NCBI GenBank assembly: GCA_951799425.1 | Contig: OX637397.1 | Coordinates: 18,552,064-18,616,063, forward strand | Source of the DNA: Ilex aquifolium | Lineage: Eukaryota; Streptophyta; Magnoliopsida; Aquifoliales; Aquifoliaceae | Length of the DNA: 64,000 nucleotides | Reading direction: 5' to 3' | Shown: positions 10,520-48,041 of the stretch, piece after piece | Numbering within the stretch: the first letter of the stretch is position 1 | Layout: each line of letters starts with the position of its first letter | Program-made: the position numbers and the translations under genes | Notes under the pieces: generated by a model | What the model saw: the letters and a program-made list of their open reading frames with translations, nothing else | The model's database searches: none | Told to the model about the DNA's origin: nothing

Positions 10520-10524
10520 AGACC

Positions 10525-16187: not shown

Positions 16188-16254
16188 CCATTGGTTCAGT
16201 AAATGGAATGTTTAAAAATGAGAATTTTGTCGATTCCCACAGACGGCGCCAAAC

Positions 16255-27630: not shown

Positions 27631-28302
27631 TTTTTCCAGTGTTCCGGGCATCGCATAAATCGAACATATAAGCACACATTTCCATTTTTGGTACAAAGGA
27701 AAGTCGAAGAACTCGCACTCTCGAAGAACTCGAACCGATTTGCAGCCAAAGGTGCGAAGATTCCCTATTTCTAAACCCTAATTCTTCCAATTCTTTGACC
27801 CCTCAAAAGCCCTAACTTGGTAAAGCTAAAATTCTTTGCTTTTTCATTCAAATTTCTTAGTATTTGATACTAATTGGACTTAATCTTTGAGTATACAATC
27901 TGACTGGTCTTTACTTCCTATAAGCCTTCAGTAATTGTTGAAATTCATAGGAATTGGAAGTTGTTTGATTGATTTATGAAGAACCCAAGTTCTCCATTTG
28001 TTGGTCTGGGATGTGTGAGTTTTATGATTTGTGGGGGCTTTTGATCAGTAGTTGATGTTAGTACATCTGAATCTATTGGTATTGGCGAATTCTTGAAACG
28101 GGTTTTGTTGTGTTGGTCGTTTAGGGCTTTACGGTTGTCAGAATAAACTGTAGGGTTTCAATTCTTGATAACAGTGTCCTCTTGGGGTGAAGGTCTTAAT
28201 TTTTGTGGAAATTTGTGTATTGAGTTCAAAAGGTACTGGTTGCAGCATTCTAGTGAGAGTTTGTGTTGGCGCGCGGGCCCTTGTGTACAAAGGGTTTTCT
28301 AC

Positions 28303-28983
28303 ATGGGGAAACCACTGTTTTATGAGATTTTGGAAAAGCCGGCTACAAGTTGTATTATAGGACTATGTACTGCAATTTGGTTTTATATACAGAAGAAAAA
28401 CATTGGATATTCACATGTGGGTTTGAGTTATGAACATGCCCTTGAAGGTCATTATTGGAGGGTAATAACATCTGCATTTTCCCATATAAGTGTTCTTCAT
28501 CTAGTTTTTAATATGAGTGCACTTTGGAGCCTTGGAGTTGGCGAACAGTTAGAGCACATTGGTCTTGGGGTGGAGTTTTATCTCCATTACACCCTTGTGT
28601 TGGTTGTTTTATCAGGTTTGCTTGTTTTGGGTGCATATCATGTTTTGATACAAAAATTCAAGTTTGAATATTTCAGAAGAGTAACTGCTGTTGGATATTC
28701 TTGTGTGGTTTTTGGGTGGATGACGATTCTATCGACGAAGCAACCTTCTTCTAAGTTGGAACTTTTTGGGTTTCTTTCGCTTCCCATTAGTTTTGCACCA
28801 TTTGAGTCCCTTGTATTTACATCAATAATTGTTCCGCAAGCAAGTTTTCTTGGTCATTTATCAGGAATCATTGTTGGGTACTCTATTGCATGGGGTTTGA
28901 TCCATGGGATGAACAATTACTGGCCTTATAAGCTGTATATAAGCTGCTTGCATTCTAATCAAAACCAAAAACAAATCCGATGA
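28303..28983 (+). CDS. RBL13: Rhomboid-like protein, RBL13-like, with divergent C-terminus
   Basis: The start [17 protein letters not shown] is the conserved start of plant RBL13 proteins; 46 open codons upstream are leader. The product is 226 residues with several membrane segments. Visible rhomboid features are HLVFN (His66...Asn70), a GYS serine site ([12 protein letters not shown], Ser133) and the catalytic-type histidine in FLGHLSG (His185). Rhomboids are intramembrane serine proteases of the secretory or organelle membranes; activity and substrate of this branch are not established. After GMNNYW (residue 207) the sequence leaves the family pattern and ends about 40 residues early, in a tail rich in polar residues ([10 protein letters not shown]). 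No good GT donor follows residue 207, so the last exon was lost, replaced, or joined by a splice I cannot see. The leader has a likely intron (donor 'ttg|gtaaag' near 27821). Confidence 0.88.
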
Positions 28984-29528
28984 TAATTTTTCTTTTATAA
29001 CCTTTTTTGGCCTCTTGCAGCATTGACTAGTCCTCAGATTACAAACCACCCCACAAGACTTGTGAATCGGGAAGCCCAGTTCAAAGTCTCTCCGACTCGG
29101 CCTAATTTCATTATCGATTACAAGTGTGGTTGTGCCCCTATTCACCAGACTCTGTGTGTGTGTGTGTGTGTGTGACAAAACCCAGAATAACCATGAAAAA
29201 AGGGCAGAACCAGAGTATGAATTTACAGCAAAATCAGGATCAGAACATTGAAAGCTATACACATACGCATACAAAACAGCTAAATAATTGAAAAATATCA
29301 GAATAGCAAAATTGTGTAGAAAACCCTTACCTTCGTCTCTCTCTCTCTCTCTCTGAAAATCCCAATTCTGTGGTGTTGCAAGGTTAGGATTTCAATTGTA
29401 TGTGTCTTTTGTGCATAAAGATGAGGGTGAGGGTTATTGCGGAATCTACCTTCTAAAGGAAAACAAAGGGAGAGGTTTCTTGTAAAAGCTGTTTCCTTCA
29501 ATAAGAAACGTCTTTGCTGATTGGATAA

Positions 29529-29579
<51 letters not shown>

Positions 29580-29688
29580 TATTCGATGAAGAGACCAACC
29601 GGCCAAGGCAGGGACACGCAATTAAAGGCATGCTACAGTGCATCCAAGCCCAAGAATTTTTAGCTGGTGCTATTTGCTTTTAAGATAA
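28984..29688. other. Downstream DNA of the RBL13-like gene, with microsatellites
   Basis: It contains a good splice-acceptor-like 'cctcttgcag' at about 29022, followed by about 120 open bases on the plus strand that I do not recognise. A (GT)n run lies at 29154-29174, and CT runs lie at about 29338-29354 and 29536-29577. The acceptor might serve a last exon of the RBL13-like gene, but the only GT donor upstream leads to an early stop. Confidence 0.4.
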
Positions 29689-29717
29689 CTAGTTGGTGCA
29701 CACGTGCGTTGCACGTG
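29689..29717 (-). other. Helitron 3' terminus: hairpin plus CTAG
   Basis: On the minus strand a 7-bp perfect stem (CACGTGC/GCACGTG, 3-nt loop) lies 8 nt before CTAG, and the next base is T. The 'cgtgcgttgcacg' core is a hairpin form seen at many plant Helitron 3' ends. Confidence 0.65.
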
Positions 29718-30516
29718 GACCATTTTGAGATTGCACTTTAGAATTGCACTTTTTCATGATGATGGAGTGGTCGTTCCTGATTGCCTTTAGCTGAAGCCCT
29801 TCCGTTGAAACAACCCACAACCTCTTCAGGTTTTGCCTTTGGCATGTCCATCAAGGTTGAGTTTTACCCTTCAGAGATAGAGAACCTAACTTGTGTAGAG
29901 ATTGACCTGCCTAATGACCATGTGGTTTAAGCAAGGGCACATTGACTTACGTCAAATGTTGTTTTGTAGGGATTTTCTTTTTCTTTTTTTGGAGAGAGAA
30001 AGGGGTGTAGATGCATATCATACAACAATTTATTTCTTTTGTAGTACACACTCAAGAAAATTGGGCCAGCCTACAACTCTACTCAGAATTTCATAAGTCA
30101 TAATTTCATGGCCTCTTTCACAACAAGCAATTGGATGAAAAAACACAAATGATGGAGATGGGAAATGCAACCCTTCAGAATTACCCTACAGCATGTTGTC
30201 AAGTTGTTCTTGAAGATCCTGTATGGAAATCATGTAAATGCTCTGTATCTTTTCAGGTGTATACTCCGATTTCAGTAGGCACTATACCCAATTCCAAGTT
30301 GTAACTAAAAACATAAAAAAAAATTGATTGTTTGGTGTAAAACTCAAAAAATAACATACATCCTGAATGCAACATGAATGAAAATGAAAGCATATTCAAA
30401 AATCAAATTTACACCTCACGCAACAACATGCCCCTCAGAAAAAAGAACAGAACATATCCTTAGAAGGTCTGATGGAATAGGAATTGTTAAAATAAAGCTC
30501 TGGTTTGCTTACTAAC
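29718..30516. other. Helitron interior without recognisable gene
   Basis: No coding sequence that I recognise. It corresponds to the part where later exons of the VIT/VWA fragment would be expected, but no further exon was found. Confidence 0.4.
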
Positions 30517-31393
30517 CTTCCTGCCGTGGTTGATCACTGGGAATAGATAAAGACAAAACATTTCCCTTTGGTCAAAATCATCCAGAGATGGAGACTGCAA
30601 CAGCAGGCCACCAAATATATCACCTGAAGAAACCTGAAAACAAAGTGGCCAACCAAGAAAATAACAATTGGATGTATACCGAATGAGTTACTAACTAAAG
30701 AAGGTCCCTACACCTCTACTGTGTTAGTTTGTGATGAACTACAGACCACATACCTACTTCAAACCACTGTGAAGGTTTAGTAAGTCACATACAGTCGAAA
30801 AAAAATAGATGGCAGTCTTACAGTATACAGAAAACTAAAGTCATTAGTGGACCATGTCTGAACTTCTGCCTCATATAAAAAGCCTAATTTCCCTGCCTGA
30901 CGTCTTAGTTCCTGGAAAGGAATAAAAACCGTCATTCTATTTATATCCTTGGCCTAAATGAAACATTCAATGATGGCATACCTTTAAAGGATGGCTAGTA
31001 GTTTTGCATAAAACCTCTGTCCCAGAGCCTGAATTCACATTTAACGATATCTTTGCTTTTCTAAACATTTTCTTTCCAACAGGTATGACATGTGCAGGAA
31101 AGCTAAATGGAACACTGAGGCATAATTGACCATCTTGATATGACAATTTCTGGGACCAACTGATTTTAATAGAAAGACTGGTTCCCCCATCAACCTTGAA
31201 CAAAATCATAAGCACATGTTGTTTCAGTTTAAGGAAGCAAACGTGAGAAAAGAGGCATAAGCCATCATGCAATATGAATTGGTAGCAACCTGGGGAATCT
31301 TTAATGTGTATATCTGGCCTTTTAACAAGACCCCGTCCTTAGGGTCGTCTATGTCCTCCGCATCCCCCATTGTAATTAGCTGACCCATCATTG
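30517..31393 (-). pseudogene. Fragment of a plant inter-alpha-trypsin-inhibitor heavy-chain-like (VIT/VWA) protein gene, four exons
   Basis: Minus-strand exons at 31393-31290, 31194-30982, 30911-30822 and 30633-30517 all have GT-AG borders and keep one open frame. Family words are GQIYTLKIPQ|VDGGTSLSIKI, SWSQKLSYQDGQLCLSVPFSF, SLNVNSGSGTEVLCKTTSHP, FLYEAEVQTWS and GDIFGGLLLQSPSLDDFDQR. This is the region just ahead of the VWA domain in the At1g19110-type proteins. The first exons are missing, and the VWA domain (MIDAS site) that should follow is absent. No in-frame damage is visible in the retained exons. It looks like a captured internal gene piece rather than a decaying full gene. It lies head to tail behind the SYP71 fragment (about 590 bp apart), so one transcript could span both. 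Confidence 0.85.
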
Positions 31394-31804
31394 CTGCAGA
31401 GTTGATAGCATTGATTGGTCCAACTAATATCAACAACCTTCTTATGTAGGACTTCCAAAGCTGTCATATAAATTTAGGTAATGCAATTTAGAAGTTCAAA
31501 CATTGACGATTGAATACTAATATAGCTACAAGGAACATAAAGTGAAGTATGTACTGCCAGTGTGAATGACGCCAAGTGATAGAAAAACAAAATGCAGTTG
31601 AACAGGACTACATAAATATTTGAAAATAACTGGTACAAAAAAAAAAAAGCAATAAGATTGCAGAACTGTTATCAAGGCTGCTAATCATGTATAGAAATAC
31701 AGATGAGTTCAAAATCAAGTAAATACTCCATAACAAGAGAACTACGAAGAAACATTGAGCAAAGAATGAAGTACCCTTCACTTTCAGCATCCCAAAGAGA
31801 TACC

Positions 31805-31860
31805 TGAGGAGCATGAAGAATAGCTTCCGCTAGTTTTCTATTTGCTAATAGACCTAAATC
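31805..31860 (-). other. Possible orphan exon
   Basis: A 50-nt stretch lies between 'cagatttag' and 'cag|gtatct' on the minus strand and reads LLANRKLAEAILHAPQ in one frame. It has proper acceptor and donor words but no family I recognise. It sits between the SYP71 and VIT/VWA fragments and could be a further captured piece. Confidence 0.3.
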
Positions 31861-31985
31861 TGTATGGTATTTTTTTTTAACAGACTGTGTCATGTAAGGT
31901 TAACAGATAGTGTCAGAGAGTGAATGATATAATATATGTTCTGTTATAATAAACCTTCTTCTAGACATAAAGAGAGATATCGAAC

Positions 31986-33024
31986 TTACTTGTATAAATA
32001 GGCTGCAATGCCCAGTATTATACACAACAAGATAATATCGATGCAGAAATTTTGACTCGATCTCAACTGAAACAACACCAGACCAGAACTCCATTATTCC
32101 CAGTATACAAATATGCTCGAGTAAAGCTAAATAGAAATGGAAATCTGAGTTGAATCCATCGCAGTTCAATCACCTGGTTAACAGTGTCCTTAAGTCTAAC
32201 ATTGGTATTCTTTAGGTCAGATGTTGCCCTGTCCACCTGTAAGACATGAAGCTGGACATGCTGTGAATAATTTCACAAATCTTGCTGTAGCAAAAATTAA
32301 AATTACGAGGACAAGTTAAATTTTCTGACCTTAGTGTCAATCTCATCCATCAAAGGAACTTGCCTATCCAATTCCTGCAAGCATTGCATAACATCATGAA
32401 TTAGCATCCATTTATACTGCCAAGCAACAGATAGCAAAGCATAACGCAGCAAACCTCGTTCATATCATGGGCCATGTTTTTCAATGTATCCAAACCATCT
32501 GCTATGACATCCAAACCTTGGTCCTGGATAGCATCAAAGATAATCATAGAGCAAATGCAGAAACCACAGCAAAGAATGCAATATAAATAACTACAAAGAC
32601 ATGCATGCTTGCTCCAAATCAGAAGCAAGCCAAATAAACAATACACATTTACAAACAAACACATGCCTGTTTCATTTTCTGCATCTCATACTCTTGCCTA
32701 AATTGACTTGACTCTTCGGTTTGCTGGAAATATTGACCATCAAACCGTCCATCTATGATACAAGGGAGACCCATAGTGAACAACAAAATAGGTGAAGCCT
32801 ACCAGAAATAAACGATCGCAAAGAAAGTAAAAATTTCTATCAATGAACCAAGTGAGTCAATCACCTGAATCGAACTTGATTTCCGTATGAGAAGCTGAAG
32901 CTGTCCAGCCTCCAGTTTGTTTAGGTGCACCCGCAGTCCCATCTGGTATGGCTTGAATCCTATCAGGTAGTGCAAGAACCAAATCATTGCTGGAAGCAAA
33001 TTCTTCTGTCGAAAGCCCTTTGAC
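31986..33024 (-). pseudogene. SYP71: C-terminal two thirds of a SYP71-type Qc-SNARE gene, six exons
   Basis: Minus-strand exons are 33024-32865, 32752-32667, 32523-32455, 32374-32330, 32236-32174 and 32066-31986 (stop). They form one open frame of 167 residues. Visible parts are NDLVLALPDRIQAIPDG, then TGGWTASASHTEIKFDSDGR, the SNARE helix (DQGLDVIADGLDTLKNMAHD ... ELDRQVPLMDEIDTKVDRAT, with the Qc zero-layer Gln in the RQV word) and a C-terminal membrane anchor (ILLCIILGIAAYLY). The second intron uses a GC donor (AAACAG|gcatgt). The first two exons of the family (about 100 residues with the start codon) are absent as far as I can see. The piece begins in an intron, as captured fragments often do. 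The family acts in ER/plasma-membrane fusion and cell-plate formation. Exons look undamaged, so capture is recent or the piece is still under selection. Confidence 0.88.
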
Positions 33025-33529
33025 CTGCAACAGTCAGTCCAAAGTATTTAGGAACACTATGCAGCAAACCAAAAATTAGGAAGAAAACCACAAAAATTAT
33101 AAACAATTGCAAAAATAGCCTGATTAGAAACAGATGCAAATAACAAAATATCCAATGCAGTGAAAAATGCTACACGTATAATTATGAGTTATAATTTTAA
33201 TTTTTTTTCAAAAGTCACGAAACGAATTTGGAAAGATTAAGCGAATATATAGAGGAACAAAGTGTGTAATTCATCTGATTTCTTACGATTAGTCATATTT
33301 ATTAAGAAAAATGAACATTTTAAGTTCAGGATTTCATTCACGTCGTTTAGCCAACTTAGAAAAATGATATTGAGGTGGGTTGTTGCTGATGCTGCATGAG
33401 ATTATCACACGACATTGCAGACTGTATATTATGTGGAGCATATTTGATAGATTTGTCTCTATCTCTCTATTCATATATGTTTATTCTTTTGGGAACTGTT
33501 AATGTTAATGTTTTTTTTTTTTCAATGAG
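33025..33529. other. AT-rich DNA upstream of the SYP71 fragment
   Basis: I searched it for the missing first exons of SYP71 and found no match. Confidence 0.45.
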
Positions 33530-33850
33530 AATATTATTTGAAAGGTATGCTAATATTTGAGGTGGAAACAGATTCTTATGAAGTCTACACACTGTTGGAG
33601 TACCAGATGGAGGATACTAATCCCAACAATGTGTATTGCGAATTGCAAGAGATTGCTTGGAGACTCAAACAACTCTATGAGGCATATTCTTTGGGAAGGA
33701 AATCAATGTGTGGATGCACTTGCTAATTTGGGGGTTAGACAGGAGTAGATAGTACATATTCACTTCTCTGCCAAGCAGTAAAGTGGATATAGTACCCATT
33801 ACTTGACATTGTGATTAAAGACTCAAGCAACTAAAAATGCCAAAAAAAAG
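33530..33850 (+). mobile_element. LINE 3' fragment (RNase H-like C-terminus), broken
   Basis: Plus-strand text FEVETDSYEVYTLLEY opens the piece, followed in another frame by EGNQCVDALANLGVRQ. This is the end of a plant LINE-type RNase H with one frameshift between the halves. A short A-rich end occurs near 33841-33849. It is 5'-truncated. Confidence 0.65.
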
Positions 33851-35362
33851 ACCAATTTTTCTTTTTTGTATATTACATATTTCTCCAAGAAATAGTGTAA
33901 ATTAATATCCATTCGGAATTCACAACTTCTAGAAGCAAAGTAAAGAAACTTTAAGTGCATGTACACATGAACATACATCATCAATTAAGTGATGAGTGCT
34001 CAATTGCCTATGCTTATTTCTGAACTTTATCCATCATCAATTAAGTATTCATTATAATGTATTTATGTTTGCTATATGTGAGTGCACTGGGATGCTCTAA
34101 GTGAAGCTTAGAAAATATGGTTGGGGTTATGCTTGCAAAATCTATGGAAGCTTCTAAATTATGGATAAGTTATGGAAAGGGATAGAATTGGCTTGGTTTA
34201 AGAAATGATTGGCTATATCAATTTTGAGAAGCTGGTTGTTAGAATAATTGAGACAAAAATTAATGATTTTAGATGTTGAGTTAAAGGACAAAACAATCCT
34301 AAAGGCTAATGGCTGATTAGCAGACGGTGGCCGATAGTTCTGAGTGCTGCTTATAGCGTGCTTATCAAATGTGTTAGAAAATTATCAGACGGTGGCCGAT
34401 AGTTCAGTAAATTATCATATATAACCATCCTACTCTGAAAGCCAAATGTGTTAGAAGAAACTTTTAGGCCATTCCAAGTAGCTAATCAACAAAGATTAAA
34501 AAATATGCAATTGTTGTAAAGAGAAATCCAATAAATTATAAAAGATGCATTTTATATAAAAAGATTAACACAAAAGTGTGCTTAGACTGTCTACAGTCTA
34601 ATGAAGCAGTGGTGGTGGAGGGTTATGTATTTTCAGATAAATCCATGAGTTGAAACCATTTCTGAACTCACTTTTTTTAGGTACCAATTAAATGAGAGAG
34701 ACTGGAATGTGTCCAAATTGTAACTTACACATTGAAACATCTGTCTTCAGGTTTAAATTTAAATGAGGAAGCTATTAGTTGCTAGTGGTTGTAGGACACA
34801 ATTGTCATTTATAGTACTAATCGGTTATGTGTAGATGCATTGCACTTGAATTGTAAGGGTCAAGAATGAGAAATGATTGATATATTGAATCATATCCTCC
34901 CATATAAATTTCATATAACTGAATTTTGACGGACCTGTTATGTTAATCAGGAAGGTGGAAGAGGAAATTTTTTATTTTTGTTTTGAGTAAGTGAACAGGT
35001 TCAATCCTAAGGGACTCGATCACTTTTGATGCTTATTTGCTCAGTTTTCCTTAATATTAAATTACTCGTCATGCATTCAAATACCATCCACCATATATAC
35101 AAGAGTCCTTAGCTTGATTAGTATTGAATGTGCATTCACTCTTCAGCTCTTGCTTTCTCAGTTTCATGTTTCTTCTACCAATCCAAACCTTGTCACTTCT
35201 CATTGTTCATAACGTCTATATTTGGGAGTTAATTTATTAAAAGAAAAAAATATCCTCAGGCTATCCCGGGACAAGCATAGTAGTGATTTCTGTAAACTTG
35301 TTTGAATGGACTCTTTAGACGCTTTATAGCTCATATATACATACGATGATCTGCTTATGTCC
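33851..35362. other. Unassigned Helitron interior
   Basis: No gene recognised. A short direct repeat, 'cagacggtggccgatagttc', occurs at about 34321 and 34387. Confidence 0.4.
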
Positions 35363-35942
35363 CAATCAATTTTACTTATCGGACAAAAAAACACTTTATA
35401 CCAATTTTGAAGATCAAAATTACAAAAAGTAAAAAAATTCAACTAAAACTGTGCAAGTAGTCTATCATCGGTAGCATTAAGATAAAAAAAGAAAAGTGTA
35501 GCGTCTTGTAACTTTTGGTAAGAGTATGAGATAATTGTCTTTTTGTAGTTACTCCAAACTTGTATATAAAGGTAATTTGTGCCTTAGATATAAAAATAGA
35601 GAGACAAATGTGTAACTATGACACAAGATAATCAATTTTACTTATCGGACAAAAAAACACTCTATACCAATTTTGAAGATCAAAATTACATAAAGTAAAA
35701 AAAATCAACTAAAACTATGGAAGTAGTCTATCATCAGTAGCATTAAGATTAAAAAAAAAAAAACGTAGCGTCTTGTAACTTTTGGTAAGAGTATGAGATA
35801 ATTGTATTTTTGTAGTTACTCCAAACTTGTATATAAAGGTAATTTGTGCCTTAGATATAGAAATAGAGAGACAAAAGTGTAACTATGACACAAGATAAAA
35901 TTTGTCGTTATTTTAATTTGTGGCTTAGTTATAGAAATAGAG
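35363..35942 (+). repeat. About 266-bp tandem repeat, two full copies and a partial third
   Basis: Copies start at about 35363 and 35629 with 'atcaattttacttatcgga'. Each continues through 'gtagcgtcttgtaacttttg' to 'tgtaactatgacacaaga'. A shortened third copy of the end lies at about 35910-35942, directly before the LINE piece. Confidence 0.85.
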
Positions 35943-36912
35943 AAACAAATTTGGAATAAGGAGGTTTTTGGTAATTTGTTTGATAATATCAGGAGTCTAG
36001 AGCAGAAAATTCAGTTAGCTGAGTTGAGTTTGGACCAAGAGTTTAGTGATTCTAAATCTGTGGAATTGGAAAGCTACAAAGGTGAACTGGATGATATGCT
36101 CAGGAAGAGGAGATATATTGGAAGCAGAAATCTAATGTTAGATGGGCTTTGGAAGGGGAAAGAAATACCAGATTCTACCAAGCAATAGCTAAAAGCAAGA
36201 GGGTTAGAAATAAAGTTTATAGAATTCAGAACAAGGAGGGAGTGTGGGTACTGGGTATTGCTGTAGTTGTTGAGGGAATGTGATTGCTGATTTTTTGGCA
36301 ACATTTGCTGTTCAGACTGGAGTATATACTGAGTTTTTAATGCAACATAGTTTGCCTTTGTCTGGCAGACTGCTTTTGCAACAGGACCAATCTGGCCTGC
36401 CAACTGCAAGGAAAATGAGGGCTATGATTACTGATCAAAGGGGCTGCAGTGAACAGTGAAATGAAATGCAGTGCTGCAGTTCTGCTCCTCTGCTGGGATG
36501 TCTGAGTTTAGCATCAGTGAGCTGGAGGAGATTTTTACCATGATGAAATAGCATCAGTTTTTGCTGCCATCAAAAGGAAGACTGCTATTATAGTAGGATC
36601 AGTCACTCAAAAGCATGGGTCTGGGATGCTTGCTTGGAATTGCTGCCCGGAGAACAATCAGGCAGCTGTTTCTGCCTGTTTAGCAGTCTGTTCAGAGGGT
36701 GTTGCACTGATCTGACTTGGAATCTGAGATATGGAGCTGGAGGCAGGAATTGTTTCATTTTACAGAGGCTTTTAAATGTAATTACAAATGGTTTAATCCA
36801 TCTTGAAGGATTAAAGCCATGTTTCATACTTTTTAGAACATTTTGTTCTTTGCTTCTTGTAAATTCAACAATTTTGGAAATAAAATTTCTCTCTTTCTTT
36901 AAAAAAAAAAAA
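35943..36912 (+). mobile_element. Internally deleted L1-like LINE with poly(A) tail
   Basis: It opens at WNKEVFGNLFDNIRSLEQK, the linker before RT in plant L1-like elements, continues to ELDDMLRK and then changes frame (one frameshift). After VYRIQNKEGVW-type text it jumps to the RNase H end (ADFLATFAVQTGV-type text near 36290). The RT is deleted. A 3' UTR of about 480 bp follows, ending in a 12-A tail (36901-36912). Possible 9-bp target duplication 'acaagataa' lies at about 35892 and 36917, though the left copy belongs to the tandem repeat. A related 3' end lies at 44209 in the opposite strand. Confidence 0.75.
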
Positions 36913-37654
36913 TGAGACAAGATAAGCACATACATCCATACTTGTTTAGTGTTTTTATATTTAATTTGATTTCGATGAAATTGAATGATTTTTGCCACAT
37001 ACAATGTCTGAGCTTGGCAGCATTGATGAAATTGAATGGCGTTCGTATCCTTCACGATTTGTTAAATTTCTCTTTACAATTGTGTACACTTTTTTTAAAA
37101 TTCTGCAAATAACTTCAAATAGGTGATGTTCAATTTATCAGTTTATTTACAAATAATGTATTTAATTCTCTTGTATCACTTAATCTTTTCAAATTCTTGT
37201 CAAGTCTTTTAAATATAAACATTAAAAAAAAACATCTAAAGAATATGTCAAACAAATAATTCTTAAAACTTGAATCTCTCTACTTTCACACTTCTGATTG
37301 CCACTATAGAATTTGTTGGGTTCTATGTCATATTGGATAATATTGGAAAGCATGATCTTCGAATCTCTAGCTTTCACTTGTGAATATTCACATGAACAGA
37401 AGTGGGGCATAATCATAATAGGGAGCCTTAAATTACTTTTAGAGCTATTAGATGCCACACAAAACTTCTGAAAAAACCCAACTTATGGTTAAAAGTGTTT
37501 CTGGCTTTTGAAGGGGAATACTTTAAGAGCGATTGAAATCGCTTCTTCCAAATGCACTACTATACCATGCATCACATGTAGCATTTAGGCATGAAACAAC
37601 ATCAGAAATTTTGATGATTTATTTAGCCATGAATTTTTGTTTTTATGTCTACAG
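36913..37654. other. AT-rich DNA, no gene
   Basis: Nothing recognised. The right end should include intron sequence ahead of the MFS exon ('tttttatgtctacag|' at 37640-37654). Confidence 0.4.
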
Positions 37655-38078
37655 TCCAATATTTGCAGAGATAGTTCCAGAGAGATCTCGAATGAGCATC
37701 TACGCTTTCGATCGATCCTTTGAATCCATATTAGCATCATTTGCTCCTCCTATAGTTGGAATTTTGTCTCAGCATGTCTATGGTTACAAACCAGTTACAA
37801 AAGGAGCAATGGATTCGCAAGAGATTGAAACAGATAGAGAAAATGCTGCAGCACTTGCCAAGGCACTCTACACAGTGATTGGCATTCCAATGGCTATTTG
37901 TTGCCTCATCTACTCCTTCTTATACTCTACTTATCCAAGAGATACGGAACGGGCAAGAATGGATTCCTTAATAGAATCAGAAATGCAAGACATGGAGATG
38001 GACAATCCTTCAGGACAATTATACTCCCAAACTCGTATTTCAGAATCAGATGAGCTACATGGAAAGAGAGGAGTGTGA
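37655..38078 (+). pseudogene. Last exon of a plant MFS transporter gene (At4g36790-like)
   Basis: A splice acceptor 'tctacag' is followed by PIFAEIVPERSRMSIYAFDR, then FESILASFAPPIVGILSQHV, KALYTVIGIPMAICCLIYSF and the cytosolic tail up to TGA. This is the C-terminal exon of plant spinster-like/MFS proteins (two last membrane segments and tail). No earlier exon occurs upstream. The reading is open, so the piece itself is not damaged, but a transporter cannot be made from it. It runs against the orientation of the Helitron and of the other captured pieces. Confidence 0.85.
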
Positions 38079-38917
38079 CTTAAATCGGTTATGAACAAGA
38101 GGAAAGCCTTGATTTTGATGAAAATGATGAGAAGAGACTGCTTTACCATCAGCTCACATTTTGAGATCTTGCCAAATATGACTGGGAATGCAGCAAGCTG
38201 ACTATTACTCCTTACTCCTAAAACTTTTTTTTTTTTTTTTAAGTTTAAATGGAAAGCATTACATGGCCATACATTAAAGGAAAATTTCGATGCGTATAGG
38301 ACTTAGACTCCATATCTAAAAGCTCACTGACTCTGACTTAGAAAATTTGTATCGAACTGTTAAATTCCATGGTCCACTTACTACATGGCAGTGACTTATC
38401 TGCTAACTACATGGAATGCATAGTCATCACTGTAACCCAGCCAGCAATTGATGAACGGCAACAACAAAAGGGAGTTCATGAGGCTAATTGTTGTTGGTTT
38501 TCATTGTTTTGGGGTGTGCAACTCCATGGAGTTGTAGGAATTGAACTGTTATGGGAGTTATAATATTAAAAGAGCACAATATTTTGGGGCTATTCCCGGA
38601 CAAAATGAATAGTTGTGAACTGTAACTATGGGTGTTTTGGCTCATTTTGGGGTGCTATAGTTAAATGGTTATAGAACAATGTGATATCATTCTTCATATT
38701 ATAGATTGACAGGAGGCACATCAAAGGAAATACAAGAACAAAGTGTCCAATTATTTCTGAGAAAATACTTCCCACCAAGAATAAATCTCATTATTTTAAA
38801 GGAAATTTCCACATAAAAACAAAAATATCCTAAATAACATATACAATCGAAATTAAATGAAAGCTAAACCATCAAATTTCATTTAACATTCAAATACATT
38901 ATCATCCAATTACTCAC
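38079..38917. other. Unassigned Helitron interior
   Basis: May include the 3' UTR of the MFS exon at its left. No other gene feature seen. Confidence 0.4.
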
Positions 38918-39115
38918 CCGGATGTCCCGACAAAGAGGATGTGAACACAAAACACCGGTACAAGTCCGGTCAGAAATCTGAAGGAAATAAACCAAATCAT
39001 ATCTCATTCAGTAGTAATTGAAACCAAAAATAAACAAAAAATTCAGAACTAATAATTTTAACACAATAGTTACCTGGTAAGAGGGAGGGTAGAGCTCCTG
39101 TAGCGGTGGAAAGCT
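38918..39115 (-). pseudogene. Unidentified two-exon gene fragment
   Basis: On the minus strand one stretch ends ...SFPPLQELYPPSYQ|gtaact (39115 to about 39075). A clean 60-nt exon at 38977-38918 (ttccttcag|...|gtgagt) reads [20 protein letters not shown] in the same frame. Both splice borders fit. I do not recognise the family; Cys spacing in the second exon is suggestive of metal or disulfide binding but no more. Probably another captured piece. Confidence 0.4.
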
Positions 39116-39591
39116 TGAAGAAGATGCAATTTTGTTGTGTAAAGTATAATGCCAAGACACAAGCGCTGCTGGCAAATAGGATTTCAAAGAATTTTTCAGA
39201 CAGAAAATAGCGATTGTAAATAGGATTACGAAGAAGCTCAACAGTCTTTTTAATTAAACAAATTAATTGTTGGGATGTGTATAACCACAACCAAAGAAAA
39301 TGGATGTCTAATTGAAATCTATAATGGATAACTGACTTTTGTAATTGAATACATGTAATTAAATACATTTGAGGAGAGAGAGACTGAGAAGGGGACGGTG
39401 AAGAGGGGTCCATGACGGTGTGAGAGACAAACTGGGAGGAGGACGGTGAAGGGGGTGGTGTGCTATTCTCTAATCGGTGGGGCTGTGAATTTGGGTGTAA
39501 CGGCTGACAAGTAAATCCAGAGCAGTGAATTTGAGAAAGGAAATAGGGAGAAAGAGAAGGAAGATGAAGAGAACGGCTATAAATTTATAGG
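39116..39591. other. Unassigned Helitron interior, purine-rich to the right
   Basis: No gene recognised. It becomes GGA/GAG-rich from about 39365 on. Confidence 0.35.
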
Positions 39592-39693
39592 AGAGAGAAA
39601 AAAAAGGGAGAGAAAGTAGGAGAGAGATAGTGTAACAGCTGTGAATGGATTGAGGAAATAGGGAGAGAAAGAGAGAAAATAGGAACAGAGTGA
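39592..39693 (+). repeat. GA-rich direct repeat, copy 1
   Basis: A block of about 102 bp including 'gtgtaacagctgtgaatgga' recurs in the same orientation at 45970-46081. The two copies lie just outside the inverted arms of the FAR1/MULE region. Confidence 0.8.
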
Positions 39694-40009
39694 TGGATCT
39701 GGCTCCTCTGTTGTTCAGAAGGAACAGCACAGCCTGCTGTTCGGTTAAAACGACGGCGTTTGGCTTCTTTTTTTTATTTTTTTCTTTGTGCCGTTAAACG
39801 GCACCGTTCCATTTTCTTCTTCAACAGTCCAGCAGCAGTAAAGTATTGGCGCCATTCTTGCTCCATTCTTGCGCCATTTGAACAGTCCTACACCAAAAAC
39901 AACAAAGGCTCCTACGATTCATGGTTTTGCGATTCTTGTTTTGCGATTCCTCTCCTTCGTCCATTTCAGGTATTCTTATGTTCATTTCAAATATTTTTAA
40001 GTGGATATA

Positions 40010-40293
40010 TGTATAAACACACACACACACATATATATACACATACACACCCACAAATTGTACAATTTTTTTAGTTGGATTTTTCTTGACCTAAATTTAA
40101 ATTTTAAAATTTTGAATCTTCGATTGTTTTGTTGATTTTTTTTATCATTATTAAATTTTATGATATGATTTAATTGTGATGTTTTGGTTTGTTGTTAATT
40201 TATATTGATCGTGGGTTCGAGTCTCATCACCACCTTCTCCATGTAAAATAATGTTCAAAAAAATTAAAAAAAAAAATACATTGAAGCTTGTTT

Positions 40294-40326
<33 letters not shown>

Positions 40327-40573
40327 CACACCCACAAATTTACATTTTTTTTAGTTGGATTTTTCTTGACCTAAATTTAAATTTTCAAATTTTGAATCTT
40401 CGATTGTTTTGTTGATTTTTTTGATCATTATTAAATTTTATGATATGATTTAATTGTGATGTTTTGGTTTGTTGTTAATTTATATTGATCGTGGATTCGA
40501 ACCTCATCACCACCTTCTCCATGTAACATAATGTTCAAAAAAATTAAAAAAAAAAATACATTGAAGCTTGTTT

Positions 40574-40612
<39 letters not shown>

Positions 40613-40861
40613 CACACTCACAAATTTACATTTTTTTTAGTTGGATTTTTCTTGACCTAAATTTAAATTTTAAAATTTTGAATCTTCGATTGTTTTGTTG
40701 ATTTTTTTATCATTATTAAATTTTATGATATGATTTAATTCTGATATTTTGGTTTGTTGTTGTTAATTTATATTGATCGTGGGTTCGAGCCTCATCACCA
40801 CCTTCTCCATGTAACATAATGTTCAAAAAAATTAAAAAAAAAAATACATTGAAGCTTGTTT

Positions 40862-40899
<38 letters not shown>

Positions 40900-41155
40900 A
40901 TACACATACACACCCACAAATTGTACAATTTTTTTAGTTGGATTTTTCTTGATTTAAATTTAAATTTTAAAATTTTGAATCTTCGATTGTTTTGTTGATT
41001 TTTTTTATCATTATTAAATTTTATGATATGATTTAATTGTGATGTTTTGGTTTGTTGTTAATTTATATTGATCGTGGGTTCGAGCCTCATCACCACCTTC
41101 TCCATGTAACATAATGTTCAAAAAAATTAAAAAAAAAAATACATTGAAGCTTGTT
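40010..41155 (+). repeat. Four tandem repeats of about 280-297 bp with internal B-box-like motif
   Basis: Landmark 'ttagttggatttttcttga' starts at 40071, 40351, 40637 and 40934. Each unit has a (CA)n/(TA)n run, an AT-rich middle, 'gatcgtgggttcgagtctc' (or 'gcctc') and an A-rich end. The GGTTCGAGTCTC word matches the RNA polymerase III B-box pattern, so each unit may derive from the 3' part of a tRNA-related SINE. The array sits in the likely 5' UTR intron of the FAR1-type gene (donor 'cag|gtattc' near 39969, acceptor 'tttgcag' at 41194). Confidence 0.88.
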
Positions 41156-41209
41156 TTAGTGTTGATACACTAGTTAGTCCTTTTTTTTTTGCAGGTATTG
41201 ACATCGATA

Positions 41210-43497
41210 ATGGAGTCCGTTGTAGTTAATGAAATTATGAACACTCCAAGTATTGGTATGCAATTTGACTCGGATGAAGATGCTTATGAGTTTTATAACA
41301 AATATGGAGGTTCGGTCGGATTTAGTGTGAGAAAAGACTACCACAATAAAAGTAAGAAAGATCAGATCATGATTTATAGAAAGTATGTTTGTTGCAAAGA
41401 GGGACAAAGAGATGTGGATAAAAGGGATTGGAAAGTAATAAAATCGCGAGCCGAGACACGAACCAAATGTCCGGCTCACATGTGCATATCTCTCAATCGG
41501 GAAATTGGGAAATTTATCGTGGTCAAATGGAAGGATGATCACAATCATCCATTGCACCTTAAGGAATGTGTACATATGATGCCATCTCAAAGGAAAGTTT
41601 CTACTGTGCAAGGCATTCATGTTGACATGGCATCGGATTGTGGGATATTACTTAAAGATTCATATGAACTTATGAGTACCTAGGCAGGTGGAAGAGAAAA
41701 TTTGGGGTTCACTCGGCAAGACCAAAAAAATTACATTCGTGATAGGAGACGACGAGAGTTAAGATATGGTGAAGCTGGTAGTTTGTTGAATTATTTTCGG
41801 TTAGAAGCGGTTAAAAGTCCATCATTTTACTATGGTATCCAGTTGGATGTTGAGGAGCATATTACAAATATTTTTTGGGCTGACCCGAAAATGATTATTG
41901 ACTATGGTCACTTTGGAGACGTTGTCTCATTTGACACAACATTCCGTACGAACAAGGATTATCGACCTTTTGCATGTTTTGTTGGCTTTAATCATTTTAG
42001 GAAGACTGTGATTTTTGGTGCTGCATTATTGTATGATGAAACGGCAGCGTCGTTTCAATGGTTATTTGAGACATTTTTGCAAGCAATGTCTGGGAAGAAG
42101 CCTATCACCATCTTAACTGATCAAGATCAAGCAATGGCTAAGGCAATAACCCAAGTGATGCTGGAGACTTATCACGGGCTATGTACTTGGCATCTTTCCC
42201 AAAATGCTTTAAAGCATCTAGGGAATATATACAAGGATGGTTCTAACTTTGTCACCAAATTGCAAAAATGCATCTACGAATATACGGAGGAAAATGAATT
42301 GTTTGAGACTTGGAATATGTTGCTTGATGAGTATAATTTGTGGGATAATACCTGGATGAAGACAACTTGGACTTTGAGGGAGAAATGGGCTAAGGTGTAT
42401 ATTAAGAGAACTTTTACAGCAGGTATGAGGGGCACCCAGCTTAGTGAGAGTTTGAATGCAAAATTGCGAAAGTACTTAAAGCCAGATCATGATATTGTTC
42501 AATTCTTTACTCACTTTGATATAGTTGTAAATGATAAGAGGTATGTGGAGTCGGAGGAAGAGTACCATGCTAGGCAAAAGTTGCCAAGAATGAAGTTAAA
42601 AAAAGCTCTCATGTTGGTGCAAGTTGGACAATGTTACACTCCTCCTGTGTTTGATTTATTTCATGACGAGTATGATACATTCCAGTGTGCTGTTGTGAAG
42701 CCATGCAATACTATGGAGCAACAACATCAATTTGTTGTTAAATTGTTTGGAAAAGAGAGTGAGTATTTGGTGTGGATAAATGCTATTGAACAACTTGTTA
42801 GTTGTAGTTGTCGGAAGTTTGAAATGGTTGAAATATTATGTAGTCATGCACTTAAAGTGTTGGACACAATGAATATTAAGCAAATTCCTGAAGGCTACAT
42901 AATAAAGAGATGGAGACGAGATGCAAGGAATATTCATACACCAGAGTATAGTGTATCAAATGTGGAGGATCCTAAGTTGGTGGCAGCATCTCGTTATAAG
43001 CAACTATGTCCTAGAATGGTACAATTAGCAGCTCGTTGCTCTGAACTTGGACCTGCACATCAGTTGGTGACACAAGGCATTCAAAATTTGTTTGAACAAG
43101 TGGAGAAAATGTTTGCATCACATATTGATGAAGGTAGTGCTTCATTTGAAAGCACATGTGTGGATAATGAAGGAATGGAGAATGTGGACCCTAACATTTT
43201 ACGAATGAAAGGTATAAAAAGGAAGGATGGTGGTTACAAAGGTTGGGGTCGACTCAAGCCGTGGCATGAGAAGCCATCTAAGAGGAAGAAAGTAATTACA
43301 CAACATTCTAATATGTCCAAGGTATGACACATCGAACATTGAATGATTTTTTTATATTTACTTAACATACGAAAATATTGATTTGATGATTATTTGTCAT
43401 TAAGGTACCTTCATCTCCACAACCAGTATGTCCACAACCATTACCTTCACAACCATTATCTACACAACCAGTATGTTCACAAGCATCCAATACTCAG
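41210..43497 (+). CDS. FAR1/FRS-type Mutator transposase with one in-frame TAG
   Basis: Start ATG 41210 (MESVVVNEIMNTPSIGMQFD). Exon 1 runs to 43321 (AAG|gtatga) and exon 2 is 43405-43497, giving about 735 codons plus a possible last exon near 43574. Domains are FAR1 DNA-binding (residues about 17-115, with the C...C...HNHPL pattern), MULE transposase (about 225-345; acidic residues D242 in SFDTTF, D304 in TILTD, E413 in QLSES) and a SWIM zinc finger (C532, C534, C544, H546). Exon 2 adds a Pro/Gln-rich tail (QPVCPQPLPSQPLSTQPVC). A single TAG at 41681-41683 (codon 158) interrupts an otherwise perfect frame, so it is a nearly intact transposase or a recent pseudogene. The alternative is a host FRS gene, but the surroundings favour a transposon. 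Confidence 0.85.
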
Positions 43498-44208
43498 GTA
43501 TATTAGTTTATTCATACATTGATTACATTAATTTTAATGTTATATTCTCATTGATCCATTCTAATTTATGTAAGCTATGTTATTTGATGCAACACAAATG
43601 CATTTATTCGGTGCGGAATCCTCCTTCATGAACGAGAACTTCTACGATTTTTTCAAGGATATTTGAAGAACAAGAGGGCAAAAGTTGTGTTGTTGCTTGT
43701 TGGTTTGAGCTTCCTTATTGTTCTGGGAGCTGATCTTTGGTGCTAAGTTGTTGGTGCTGTTTTTAGCTATTGCTTGATGCTAATGGTTTTGCAATGATGT
43801 TGATGTTGCTGCTCCAGTGCTGGATGGTGTTTCAAATTGCTGTTCAAGTTTTGAAGTCCAGTTATGCTTGATCTTGACACTTTCTTTTTGATCATTTTGA
43901 AATTTGAAATTACAATGTATTCTTTTGCTATGGGGATGGTGGATCTTCTATTGTCTTGTTTTAGAAGATAACCATCCCTTTGGAAACACCTGTGTACATG
44001 ACCCCATTTTCGACTTTTATGGAATTGATCTTACTTACCGAAAAAAAAAATGTCATCCCTTCAATGCCATCATCATCCATACCATCATCCAACATACAAA
44101 TATTAAACATCTCATTTTAATGCAATGTTCACTTGGAAGCGGATGTTCATTCCCCAAAATTCAGGCACAGTTGGAATATCAAGCAGATGTTTATTCCCCA
44201 AAAAATAG
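43498..44208. other. 3' region of the FAR1-type gene
   Basis: A last coding exon may lie at 43574-43630. Frame choice is ambiguous, with two candidate readings, one ending ENFYDFFKDI. The rest is probable 3' UTR-like text rich in 'tgctgttgatg' words, with an A run at 44040-44049. Confidence 0.4.
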
Positions 44209-44800
44209 CTTTTTTTTTTTAGGGAAAGAGAAATTTTATTTCCAAAATCATAAATTACAAGAATCAAAGAACAAATTGTTCTAAAAGTATAAAAATGGCT
44301 TTAATCCTTCAAGATGATCAAAACCATTTCTAGTTACATCTTTGACTTGGACTAGGTCCTATCTTCACATCCTAGATCCATGCCTTCAGACAACAGCTCC
44401 AAGCAAACATCCCAGACTGAACCTGTGAACAGCAGCAAACTGCCAGATACTGGTAGAAATCTATATGTTGAATTCAGGCCCTGCCTTAGTTCAGCATAAA
44501 ACAGCATCACAACCCTGCAGCACAGCAGAGTGTGCTTACAGTAGCACACTGCAACAATAGATACTGCACCAGATGCTCCAACCCAGGAAACCCAGCACAG
44601 TAGACAGAACAAAACTTCTACAGAAAACAACATTCTGTTACAAAAGAACAGACAAAATTGTTTCACTTCCTCCTGTACAGCCTGCAACAGCAACCCAGAT
44701 TCAGGCCCTCAGCTCACATAAATTCAACTACCAGTTATCATCAAAATTCTGTCTGCTTGCATTAATATTATCAAATAAGCTGACTGAACCCATAATTCTG
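44209..44800 (-). mobile_element. 5'-truncated LINE 3' end, same family as 35943-36912
   Basis: A poly(T) run at 44209-44219 marks the tail. Inward, the minus strand reads 'gaaataaaattt', 'gttctttg-ttcttgtaa' and 'catcttgaaggattaaagcc', words also present at 36800-36895. It is UTR only; no coding is left. The inner border is approximate. Confidence 0.65.
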
Positions 44801-45061
44801 GAAGGGTTGACATCCTTGTACAATTATATTGTCAAGAATCCCTTCAACTTAATTGAAACTTATACTCAAAATCAAGTGAAGTTGTTTATCTTAAACTAGT
44901 CCAATTGATGGAAGAACACAACATTACAATAGCCATTACTTTTTACAGCAAAGTTTTGCATTTACACTAGCTTTTCAAACACATGAAATCCAAACTGGAG
45001 ACAAGCAAAACTCAAGCAAAAATAGGATTGGAAGACTAAATTCAGTTAGCTAAGTCAGTAC
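44801..45061. other. DNA downstream of the LOG exon
   Basis: Searched on the minus strand for the final LOG exon; none found. Confidence 0.4.
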
Positions 45062-45205
45062 CTCCATCTTTATTAAAAGCTCTTTGGCAGTTGGAGCAGA
45101 GAGAACTATGTGCCGAGCACCTGGCTTGATGAAACCTTCTTCAACACCATTGTCGAATAACGCAAGCAAAGAGTTATAGTAGCCATCAACATTTAGCAGA
45201 CCAAC
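45062..45205 (-). pseudogene. LOG8: Single internal exon of a LOG cytokinin-activating enzyme gene (LOG8-like)
   Basis: A 144-nt minus-strand exon (acceptor 'ctgtacag', donor GAG|gtactg) reads [20 protein letters not shown] then [20 protein letters not shown] and KELLIKME, the C-terminal part of LOG phosphoribohydrolases. The full enzyme releases active cytokinin from its nucleotide. The catalytic PGGxGTxxE motif lies in an upstream exon, which is not in the window. The exon itself is undamaged. It is best explained as a captured fragment; it lies near the 5' end of the candidate Helitron and inside the inverted arms. Confidence 0.85.
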
Positions 45206-45898
45206 CTGTACAGAGATTTGCCCATCACATCATCTAGTAATTCACTTCATCTACTAGCTTTCAGAACAAAAATAGAATGCCTTTGTAGGCCGAAATCTCA
45301 AGCCCCTCTAATAATTCAATGAAACTACTTGAGCAATAACCAATAATAAACCAAGTCAATTCAAGAATATAGCCAAGAAAGCATCACCACTTTAACAGTT
45401 CATCAATTATAAACATATTGATAATAACGCATTTTTAAATTTAAGAAAAGGAAAGCAAAACATGTTATTCTCGATCCCATTTTTGCCTCGATCCTCTTTT
45501 GATTCTTCATCACCGACGGCCAGGTCAGATCCACCACCAGAAATTTCTTCATCAGTACTAAATTTTCTGACCCGAATTTGAAGAGTCTGATGAAGACAAG
45601 AACATTGAGGCCACAGTTCTCAAGAATTTCATCCTCGGAAACCCGAACAGCGTGCCGAATCCAATCGATCGACGGAAGCAACCGGTGAATGGTGACGGAA
45701 CGGTGGATGGGAATGTCAAGGTTAAGAGAGAGACGGCGGGGATAGTGATCGCCTACCAATCTGTGTTCATCACTTTTAGAGAGAGAAAGAGAGTCGGGGT
45801 GCTGCAAAAGGATGTATAGGGAGTGTTCATGGGGATTCAGATTTTGGGTCTTCGATAGTTTTAGGGCTTTTTTTTTGGGTCTGATTGGTTTTTTAAAA
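45206..45898. other. Unassigned DNA between the LOG exon and the right inverted arm
   Basis: A long minus-strand frame (46119-45403) crosses this part, but it runs through the arm and the GA-rich repeat and has no recognisable domain. A GC-richer stretch at 45620-45740 could be another captured leader, unproven. Confidence 0.35.
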
Positions 45899-45969
45899 AA
45901 GGCACCAAACGGTACCGTTTTAACCGAACAGCAGGCTGTGCTGTTCCTTTTGAACAGCAGAGGAGCCGG

Positions 45970-46081
45970 AGAGAGAAAAAAAAGGGAGAGAAAGTAGGAG
46001 AGAGAGAGTGTAACAGCTGTGAATGGATTGAGGAAATAGGGAGAGAAAGAGAGAAGAGAGAGAAAATAGGAACAGAGTGAT
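45970..46081 (+). repeat. GA-rich direct repeat, copy 2
   Basis: Same block and orientation as 39592-39693, with a small GA expansion (extra 'gagagaaga' text). Confidence 0.8.
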
Positions 46082-46182
46082 ATAGGAATAGAGGAGTCAC
46101 GTAAACGTTTGAGAAACATATGATACAGATGACATAATTAAAATGTTAGAGGATAAAATTAGAAATAAAATATTTTTCACAT

Positions 46183-46203
46183 GGCTTTTAAAAATAGTAT
46201 AGA
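46183..46203 (-). other. Helitron 5' terminus
   Basis: The minus strand reads A|TCTATACTATTTTTAAAAGC. The TC start after A and the TATACTAT...AAAAGC form match known plant Helitron 5' ends. Confidence 0.6.
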
Positions 46204-48041
46204 TAATAATAAGGGTAAATTAAACTGACACCGCCTGACATTTAATTTTATTACAGGGACACCCCTCACGTTTTCAAAATTACACTGAGACCCCACAAAA
46301 TGAATGCCATTACCGGCACAAACAAAAAGACTATTTTACCCCCTCACGTTTCCAAAGTTCATGTCATGTTTTGCGAAATTAGTTTCGATATATTTATTTG
46401 AAAAATCTAACGAGTTCACTTTTTACTAAAATCTAAAATTACTCTTTTTATATCGGTTTCACGAATCGTATCTAAAATTGATAGACATAGAAAGAGGGGA
46501 TCTCTCCACTTGTATGATGATTTCTTGCTTGATTAAATTTATGTTTTCTTGGATTTTTTTTCCCTTGTATCTCGGATTTCTTTTTTAAAATATTGATTGT
46601 GAGGTGTCTGACAAACAAGAATTTTTAGTTTTGAACAATGAATTAAAGCTTTGTTGCACTAAAACTTTATTATTTAGTCTTTTTTTTTCAGTCGTCTTTG
46701 ACATGTTATGCACCTATTCCTGGAGTAAGTTAGACTTGATTAGTCTTGGTCTTTTCTTTTTGCAGGCTTGTGATATTAAAAGACCCAAAGCAGAATATTG
46801 GTCTTAGAATTATTTTTGTTGAGACTTTGTGGATTTGATTGATCTCCCTCCGAAAAATTTGTGGTCTTACCAGTTGGAAAATGGACCTGTTAAAAGGACA
46901 GAATTTTAGTCTGAATCTGATCAGAATTGGAATTCATTTCGAATCCAAATCTGTTTAATTGGATATAAACCAATATTTTGTGGTCATATCAGTTTGGATT
47001 TACATCGTGTACTAATCAATTGTAAACTAACTTGTAAAATAATCTTTGTCAAATGTCTCGACACAAACCCATCACATTTATTTGTTGGGTTCATGTAACC
47101 CGCAAATAAAAAAAGCCTCATTATTTCTCAATCATACTCGCTACTCAATAATTTTTACATAAGACTAAAGTCACCGATAAAACTGCTACAAAAGATAAAA
47201 TCAAGTTAAGATGATCAATTTAAGCTTAATAATGTAAAAAATAGTAGCTAATTTTCAAACAAACATATAATACGCAAATATCTGTTTTTTTGAAGTGCCT
47301 AAAACTAAATCAAACATCTCCAAATTACAAATACTTACTGTTCAATTTATGTTCTTTTGATCACTTCTCAAGTTGAATCAAATCCACAAGCTATGAGTTT
47401 ACATCCTTTAATCGTGTACTTATATTATTTTTTTTGACAAATTTAAATGATATTTTAGTCGTAAATTGCGTATACTATTAATTTTTATGTGTTATACATG
47501 AAAACATTTTGAGAATAAATAAATTATTACATACTAAAGTTGTGGACACTTTTCCCCAAAAAAGCTTGTTGATAGTACATCTGAAAACTAACCCTTTGCT
47601 TAGGTATTAAATGATGCAATATTCATGGCCACTCTTAGTCTTCAACTGCCACACTCAGTCTTCAATGGAAAATAAACTGTAACAAGGAGGCTCAGCTACT
47701 TACATATTCTGTGAAAAAACAAATCATGCCTGAAGTGACCACACAATATCATGTCTACATCCACATATATGTAAATCACCTAACAGATTGAGCTCTACAG
47801 GAAAAAAAAAAAAAGGTTGGTAGCCTAGTGAGCTGAACGTCCAAACAAAGGCTAAGAGCCCATTTTATGAAAGTAGAGCTAAACAAGTTAAACACCTAAC
47901 AGATTGAAATCTACAGGAAAAAAAAATGATGCCAAATAGACAAAACTCGATAGGTGATATAGAAAAACCTAAAAGAGCTGTGTGGATAGAAAAACATCAA
48001 AGCTCTACAAGCTTGATAAAAATCCTAGCAAAAGTAAATGC
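46204..48041. other. AT-rich intergenic DNA
   Basis: At about 46207-46340 'gggtaaattaaactgacacc' text looks like one end of an old MITE. A short plus-strand frame (46604-46807) crosses a splice-acceptor-like 'tttttgcag' at 46765 but shows no known domain. No gene called. Confidence 0.4.

Follow-up and report, generated by a model that had tools for sequence, protein, structure and literature searches.

Our analyses indicate with high confidence that the genome of the holly Ilex aquifolium harbours a single insertion of a Helitron of a multicopy family, whose gene captures would have taken place in an ancestor belonging to a Rep/helicase (RepHel)-encoding lineage and into which a Mutator-like element (MULE) was later nested. 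The insertion lies in a window of 64,000 nucleotides, C7:18552064-18616063 of an 800-Mb assembly against which the genome searches were run. An earlier reading of the letters of this window (hereafter the sequence-only reading) had proposed one non-autonomous element that had taken up all the gene pieces found between its ends. The insertion of one Helitron at an A/T site, carrying parts of several host genes, is upheld by an exact empty site and by the parents of the pieces; the single collector is not, since the pieces appear to have had two carriers, the Helitron with three genes and the MULE with fragments of LOG and OSCA type. The Helitron and its immediate surroundings are the following, in coordinates of the window:

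29225 to 29688, plus strand: left flank, also present in the empty-site copy C7:18636300-18637200
29689 to 46203, minus strand: whole Helitron copy, 16,515 bp, flanked by A (29688) and T (46204) in the plus-strand reading
29689 to 29718, minus strand: Helitron 3' end, a 7-bp hairpin and then CTAG, recognized by sequence, fold and genome-wide recurrence
46082 to 46203, minus strand: Helitron 5' end, beginning TCTATACTATTTTTAAAAG, with 71-88% identical 5' ends at at least 27 other places and 13 other copies aligned
46204 to 46656, plus strand: right flank, also present in the empty-site copy C7:18636300-18637200

The 16.5-kb stretch is a genuine plant Helitron, and its ends lie where the sequence-only reading had set them, with a TC start after A at 46203 and a hairpin plus CTAG before T at 29689. 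On the minus strand the 5' terminus begins at 46203 with TCTATACTATTTTTAAAAG, preceded by A, and the 3' terminus reads CCACGTGCAACGCACGTGTGCACCAACTAG, ending at 29689 and followed by T; both the 5' TC and the 3' CTAG (CTRR) are thus present. The 3' hairpin has a 7-bp stem and a 3-nt loop, stands 12 bases from the end and folds at −7.4 kcal/mol; equal or better folding was obtained in 4 of 200 shuffles of this end, the fold by itself being only moderately unusual. Recurrence of both termini in the genome, proposed earlier as a check, was observed. A search with the 512-bp 3' part returned 41 rows, in which at least 37 separate places, including the window, matched to the end of the query, while 54 rows were obtained with the 500-bp 5' part, of which at least 28 (again including the window) extended to 22 bases or fewer from the 5' end; with 40 candidates scored in each search, these counts are lower bounds. 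For the pairing of ends we used 37 of the 41 3' rows, dropping three that stopped short of the 3' end and one second piece of a listed copy, and 28 of the 54 5' rows, the other 26 being MULE-repeat or internal duplicate rows. Both ends occurred in the correct order and strand, at most 25 kb apart, at 15 places (the window and 14 others), with lengths between 5.6 and 21.3 kb. When 5' ends are placed at random, a mean of 0.01 pairs is expected, and chance pairing was consequently rejected.

Fourteen copies, that of the window and 13 others, were read across both ends, whereas those at C17:26.74-26.76, C1:8.75, C4:21.21, C10:2.42, C7:4.98, C5:12.31 and C1:50.70 Mb are known from matches only. The base following the 3' end was T in all 14, CTAG was kept in 13 (the exception, C19b, has ATAG) and a clear TC after A was found at the 5' end in 10. 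Copies seen in the family are 4.5-21 kb long. Three copies of the Helitron 5' end, at C13:19.27, 19.29 and 19.31 Mb, stand about 20 kb apart and are likely a tandem array of a family member.

The decisive observation for the integrity of the element is an exact empty site about 38 kb away, where both flanks are united at A and T with no gap and no target duplication. All 290 letters of the joined flanks matched C7:18636572-18636861 on the opposite strand (98%), and a 901-bp alignment of the empty site, with 888 matches in 919 columns, contains 11 substitutions (1.2%) and 20 gap letters, mostly within simple repeats; the junction between CTTTTAAGATAA and TAATAATAAGGG sits within a 568-bp ungapped block. 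The empty site joining 29688 to 46204, which had been suggested as something to look for, was therefore found in a duplicate within the same genome. This duplicate is inverted and extends into the surroundings, as window positions 26000-28923 match C7:18642872-18645804 (98%) and positions 28928-29600 match C7:18636841-18637511 (94%); for positions 60000-64000, no second place in its neighbourhood appeared among the 40 candidates scored. The empty site could be either a nearby inverted duplicate of the surroundings or an unmerged haplotype. Hence, the 16,515 bp would have come in a single step that followed the duplication, or else the duplicate would be an unmerged haplotype without the element, and under either origin the two Helitron ends belong together. 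The lower conservation of the 5' end than of the 3' part among copies might be thought to favour two ends derived from different Helitrons, with the interval being a composite of neighbouring insertions, but the empty site uniting both flanks rules this composite out and 14 other places have both ends in order, so that we give it practically no credence. The inverted duplicate has in turn about 5.4 kb of its own, from C7:18637511 to 18642872.

The cargo that we assign to the Helitron itself consists of pieces of three host genes, which encode an MFS transporter, a VWA protein and a syntaxin of SYP71 type. In all three cases a parent of 96-97% identity lies on a different chromosome:

30286 to 31382, minus strand: VWA-protein gene fragment; parent C14:30586922-30588020, 96.5%
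31947 to 33124, minus strand: SYP71-type syntaxin gene fragment, introns included; parent C9:10302039-10303210, 97.0%
37270 to 38215, plus strand: MFS-transporter gene fragment, decayed; parent C8:18916744-18917692, 96.2%

Parents, whose search the sequence-only reading had recommended, were found for these three pieces (on C9, C14 and C8) and, on C2, for the LOG fragment considered below. The intron-containing syntaxin fragment that it had recognized is present, and the exons of the parent, as joined in this analysis, encode a SNARE domain (E 1.8e-13); we take the protein to be of SYP71 type. In the case of the supposed VIT/VWA protein, the VWA half of the assignment stands, as a VWA_3 exon in the parent gene starts 303 bp downstream of the captured stretch and a VWA_3 match lies within 0.9 kb of the similar stretches on C20 and C3 as well, while the VIT half does not, an exon-by-exon search for PF08487 having given no match in the genome. 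Peptides of this gene gave nothing against PDB, or a single chance-level match at E 0.98, and weak matches only in an NCBIfam scan. The MFS fragment had also been correctly identified, although its Pfam score is weak and below the curated cut-off. Over 247 codons it differs from its parent by 3 synonymous and 21 non-synonymous changes, four of the latter being stops, and it has two frameshifting gaps. The piece is accordingly decaying and not a maintained protein, a coding function being ruled out by these non-synonymous changes and stops. Two of the three pieces lie on the strand of the Helitron, too few for the earlier remark that three of four share it to carry meaning.

Between the SYP71 and VWA pieces, a 225-bp stretch (31415-31639) is 88-89% identical to one place on C8 and to places grouped in clusters on C2 and C6, and may be another captured piece. 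The middle of the Helitron contains two head-to-tail copies of 267 bp, 95% identical (35364-35898), and a six-frame Pfam scan of positions 33400-37600 gave no family.

The sister copies allow the captures to be traced by their breakpoints. SYP71 sequence is found in 9 of the 13 other copies read, the VWA piece in 4 and MFS sequence in 3. The SYP71 end breakpoint, at parent position 1911, is common to the copy in the window and 7 of those 9, the remaining 2 ending at 1636. The VWA piece covers parent positions 423 to 1521 in the window, C19a and C4b, which share both breakpoints, and its 1521 end is retained in C4a and C5a. Likewise, the MFS breakpoint 445/446 is common to the copy in the window, C19a, where 59 columns remain, and C4b, where 58 do, and C2a retains another 124 columns of MFS sequence. 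Pairwise differences between copies range from 0.5 to 4.9%, and those between copies and parent from 2.5 to 5.0%; for SYP71 these distances cover 8 of the 10 copies with the piece, that of the window included, and exclude the shortened C4a and C5a. All the compared copies are united against the parent at 7 of 591 sites in SYP71 (8 copies) and at 23 of 1096 in VWA (3 copies). Copies that differ from one another about as much as from the parent, with few shared sites, fit single captures that would have occurred shortly before the spread of the family.

The lineage in which the captures took place is indicated by those sisters that encode Rep and helicase domains (PF14214, PF05970 and PF21530). 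C2a has Helitron_like_N, PIF1 and Pif1_2B domains, and C18a and C19a have PIF1. A genome search for Helitron_like_N, in which 150 of 204 candidates were scored, gave at least 150 matches; the four best listed are C5:12311767, with a 942-aa open frame, C17:26747071, C18:20772076 and C2:43671645. At these four loci and at C19:8524837, the SYP71 piece and the 3' end of the family lie beyond the domain, on the same strand. C19a, with its PIF1 domain, also contains the VWA piece in full, together with a relic of the MFS piece that measures 59 bp and shares its breakpoint. As for the Helitron of the window, no RepHel domain was detected in the stretches scanned and no PF14214 match falls in it among those listed; the scans covered the minus strand only in 29689-33400 and the transposase frame only in 41174-43200, leaving out 39700-41174. 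It also lacks the DNA that bears RepHel in C19a. Because RepHel-encoding sisters carry the same SYP71 piece, the captures are not attributed to the copy in the window, contrary to the idea of a non-autonomous element as the captor, and the lack of both a detected domain and the C19a RepHel DNA leads us to take this copy as a derivative that lost RepHel. It seems to descend, without RepHel, from a lineage that already bore the cargo.

The reverse order, with captures made in a non-autonomous element and RepHel copies gaining the pieces later by recombination between copies, finds some agreement in the mosaic nature of the family, whose copies keep different internal parts, and in a nearly star-like split pattern among copies, in which some sites conflict. 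We nevertheless consider it quite improbable: the SYP71 piece stands between RepHel and the 3' end in C19a, C18a and C2a, the same order is given by coordinates at C5:12.31 Mb and C17:26.75 Mb, and it is simpler to suppose that derivatives lost RepHel. Capture in the RepHel lineage could have a further consequence. The presence of the SYP71 piece in the copy with the 942-aa open Rep frame suggests that the cargo may still be spreading. We therefore put forward, tentatively and as a possibility below even chances, that the cargo was captured by and kept in the RepHel lineage and is perhaps still being spread, the nested MULE contributing captured genes at a second level, which a Helitron could mobilize like its own.

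The remaining gene fragments lie within the MULE, whose parts and flanking repeats are listed here:

39590 to 39694, no strand assigned: left copy of the duplication that flanks the MULE, ending in the presumed 9-bp target duplication CAGAGTGAT (39686-39694)
39695 to 45970, plus strand: MULE nested in the 5' part of the Helitron, recognized by inverted repeats, flanks, and FAR1 and MULE domains; transposase in none of the 13 sisters
39695 to 39773, plus strand: left terminal inverted repeat, starting GGATCTGGCTCCTCTG
41174 to 43327, plus strand: transposase frame with FAR1, MULE and SWIM domains and one TAG at 41681-41683
44211 to 44752, minus strand: possible 3' piece of a long interspersed nuclear element (LINE); 92% copy at C14:9560300-9560839
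44768 to 45473, minus strand: LOG (lysine-decarboxylase-like) fragment in two pieces, 98.6% and 95.9% identical to parts of C2:22012065-22013205
45551 to 45832, minus strand: OSCA/CSC1-type (RSN1_TM) fragment, matching parts of C6:34163758-34164124 at 96.4% and 92.0%
45895 to 45970, minus strand: right terminal inverted repeat, with the outermost bases replaced at a TCC/GGA overlap
45968 to 46081, no strand assigned: right copy of the duplication, ending in CAGAGTGAT (46073-46081)

The LOG fragment, with its parent on C2 and a PF03641 match slightly above the cut-off, does lie between the Helitron ends as formerly noted. A further fragment within the MULE, of OSCA/CSC1 type, is probably the piece that had been left without a name; RSN1_TM scores 25.6 bits in the window, slightly below the cut-off of 27, and 63 bits in the parent. 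In the LOG fragment, 436 bp of the parent are absent between the two pieces. Since the gaps in both fragments appear to remove parental coding sequence, splicing was rejected as their cause, and we take them as deletions or separate pieces.

Both fragments stand between the inverted repeats of the MULE, beyond its transposase, and transposase, LOG and OSCA pieces are found in none of the 13 other Helitron copies fetched. Moreover, in 11 of these the 5' end directly joins sequence which in the window is found across the MULE, at positions under 39.7 kb, the spacing being similarly short in C1a and about 0.4 kb longer in C6a; the extra sequence of the window at this site amounts to 6.3 kb (39695-45970). 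Their position within the MULE repeats and their absence from all 13 sisters rule out the LOG and OSCA pieces as Helitron cargo and leave the Helitron with three genes of its own, the other two having in all likelihood been brought in by the MULE that landed inside it. It is true that all pieces lie between two Helitron ends, and Helitrons are known to gather several fragments. The claim that one non-autonomous Helitron captured every piece itself, with the MULE as an unrelated later insertion, must however face the place of LOG and OSCA beyond the transposase, the 11 sisters that run straight across that place and the SYP71 piece in RepHel-encoding sisters, and we hold it to be very improbable. 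The later invasion by LINEs and a MULE that accompanied this claim is substantiated for the MULE by its repeats, its domains and its absence from the 13 sisters, and not for the LINEs: no LINE domain was found, and the LINE remnants rest on the reading of short frames only. The piece at 44211-44752, which gave no domain match, is possibly the 3' piece of a LINE, and a stretch at 36.78-36.91 kb is related to it. Four head-to-tail copies of a 280-bp unit (40017-41156) lie between the left end of the MULE and the transposase frame.

A related MULE copy elsewhere in the genome, read by eye, has both ends starting GGATCCGGCTCCTCTG and a 9-bp duplication, AATCTAGAA, at its flanks. In the window, CAGAGTGAT occurs on both sides of the MULE, with about 105 extra bp separating it from the right inverted repeat, which is without its outermost bases at the 3-bp overlap. 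The MULE apparently inserted about 130 bp inside the Helitron 5' end with a normal 9-bp target duplication; a failed excision, followed by break repair that recopied some 105 bp from an uninterrupted template, would probably account for the rest. The flanking repeat might instead be an older tandem duplication with the MULE inserted at its junction, and the 5' part of the family does show other internal duplications in several copies. This seems unlikely to us, as the MULE would have had to enter precisely at the junction without making a 9-bp duplication, and the lost outermost bases of the right inverted repeat would be left unexplained. We favour insertion followed by repair.

Several observations weigh against the history that we propose and must be set beside its support. 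The 5' start is TC after C in C4a and TT after A in C4b, and no clear TC is seen in C19a and C5a; the 5' ends are just 71-88% alike, against 93-97% for the ten best 3' parts, which implies unequal rates of evolution at the two Helitron ends, or recombination. As for the empty site, it is a local inverted duplicate (or an unmerged haplotype) and not an orthologue from another species. Four of the 13 other copies (C10a, C19b, C6a and C1a) show none of the three pieces and may either have diverged ahead of the captures or have shed them later, and stop codons interrupt the Rep domains at C18:20772076 (one) and C19:8524837 (two, in a partial match). The MULE is flanked by a 105/114-bp direct repeat in place of a clean 9-bp duplication, its insertion history being not fully explained, and transposition itself was not observed.

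With these points in mind, the family would move by rolling-circle replication, inserting between A and T. An ancestor in the RepHel-encoding lineage would have picked up intron-containing genomic fragments of the SYP71, VWA and MFS genes, which passed to many copies, each then losing different internal parts. The copy in the window, having presumably lost RepHel, would rely on its sisters for movement. Separately, a MULE with LOG and OSCA-type fragments would have inserted into it, some 130 bp from the 5' end.

Outside the Helitron, the window contains a MITE-like element of about 550 bp with long inverted arms (27071-27623), which has 37 other copies at 83-91% identity among the first 40 of 6009 candidates. 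Two 300-bp stretches, 100% identical and 5.7 kb apart (10524-10823 and 16254-16553), are possibly long terminal repeats.

MULEs that carry gene fragments, the Pack-MULEs, are well known, with terminal inverted repeats and fragments of host genes between them. The holly MULE resembles them in its inverted repeats, in the 9-bp duplication of a family copy and in the host fragments between the repeats, and differs from them in a nearly whole transposase frame (with one internal stop) and in its disturbed right end. Among the titles listed by a literature search on nested MULEs and Helitrons, none is on this exact arrangement, which does not show that the arrangement is unreported. For annotation, the SYP71, VWA, MFS, LOG and OSCA-like pieces described here should be treated as fragments and not as whole genes. 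More generally, they serve as a warning that a single collector need not lie behind all the gene fragments enclosed by a pair of Helitron ends, as here two carriers with different mechanisms are involved.

The Helitron itself is a gene-capturing element of a known and well-documented sort, with close precedents in maize. According to the maize study (PMC3288121), the putative autonomous ZmhelA1 has eight predicted gene fragments and ZmhelB2 two, ZmhelB7 has the ends of ZmhelB2 without its helicase domain and RPA-like parts, and maize Helitrons gather gene fragments stepwise. The holly family shares with helA and helB, as portrayed there (PMC3288121), a CTAG end with a palindrome and several fragments per element, some from different chromosomes, and its Rep/helicase-encoding members carry fragments as ZmhelA1 and ZmhelB2 do; it differs from them in host, family and genes, and in a nested MULE that brings gene fragments of its own. 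Mothra, a rice Helitron family, has been described as including a deletion derivative and gene fragments (PMC4683698). The account of rice and Arabidopsis Helitrons (PMC2575219) likewise tells of few captures that transposition then spreads to many copies, although those elements, with mean lengths of 441 and 950 bp, are unlike the holly copies of 4.5-21 kb. To these systems the holly element adds a cleanly proven case, with empty site, parents, sisters with and without RepHel, and shared breakpoints, of gene scraps gathered and copied.

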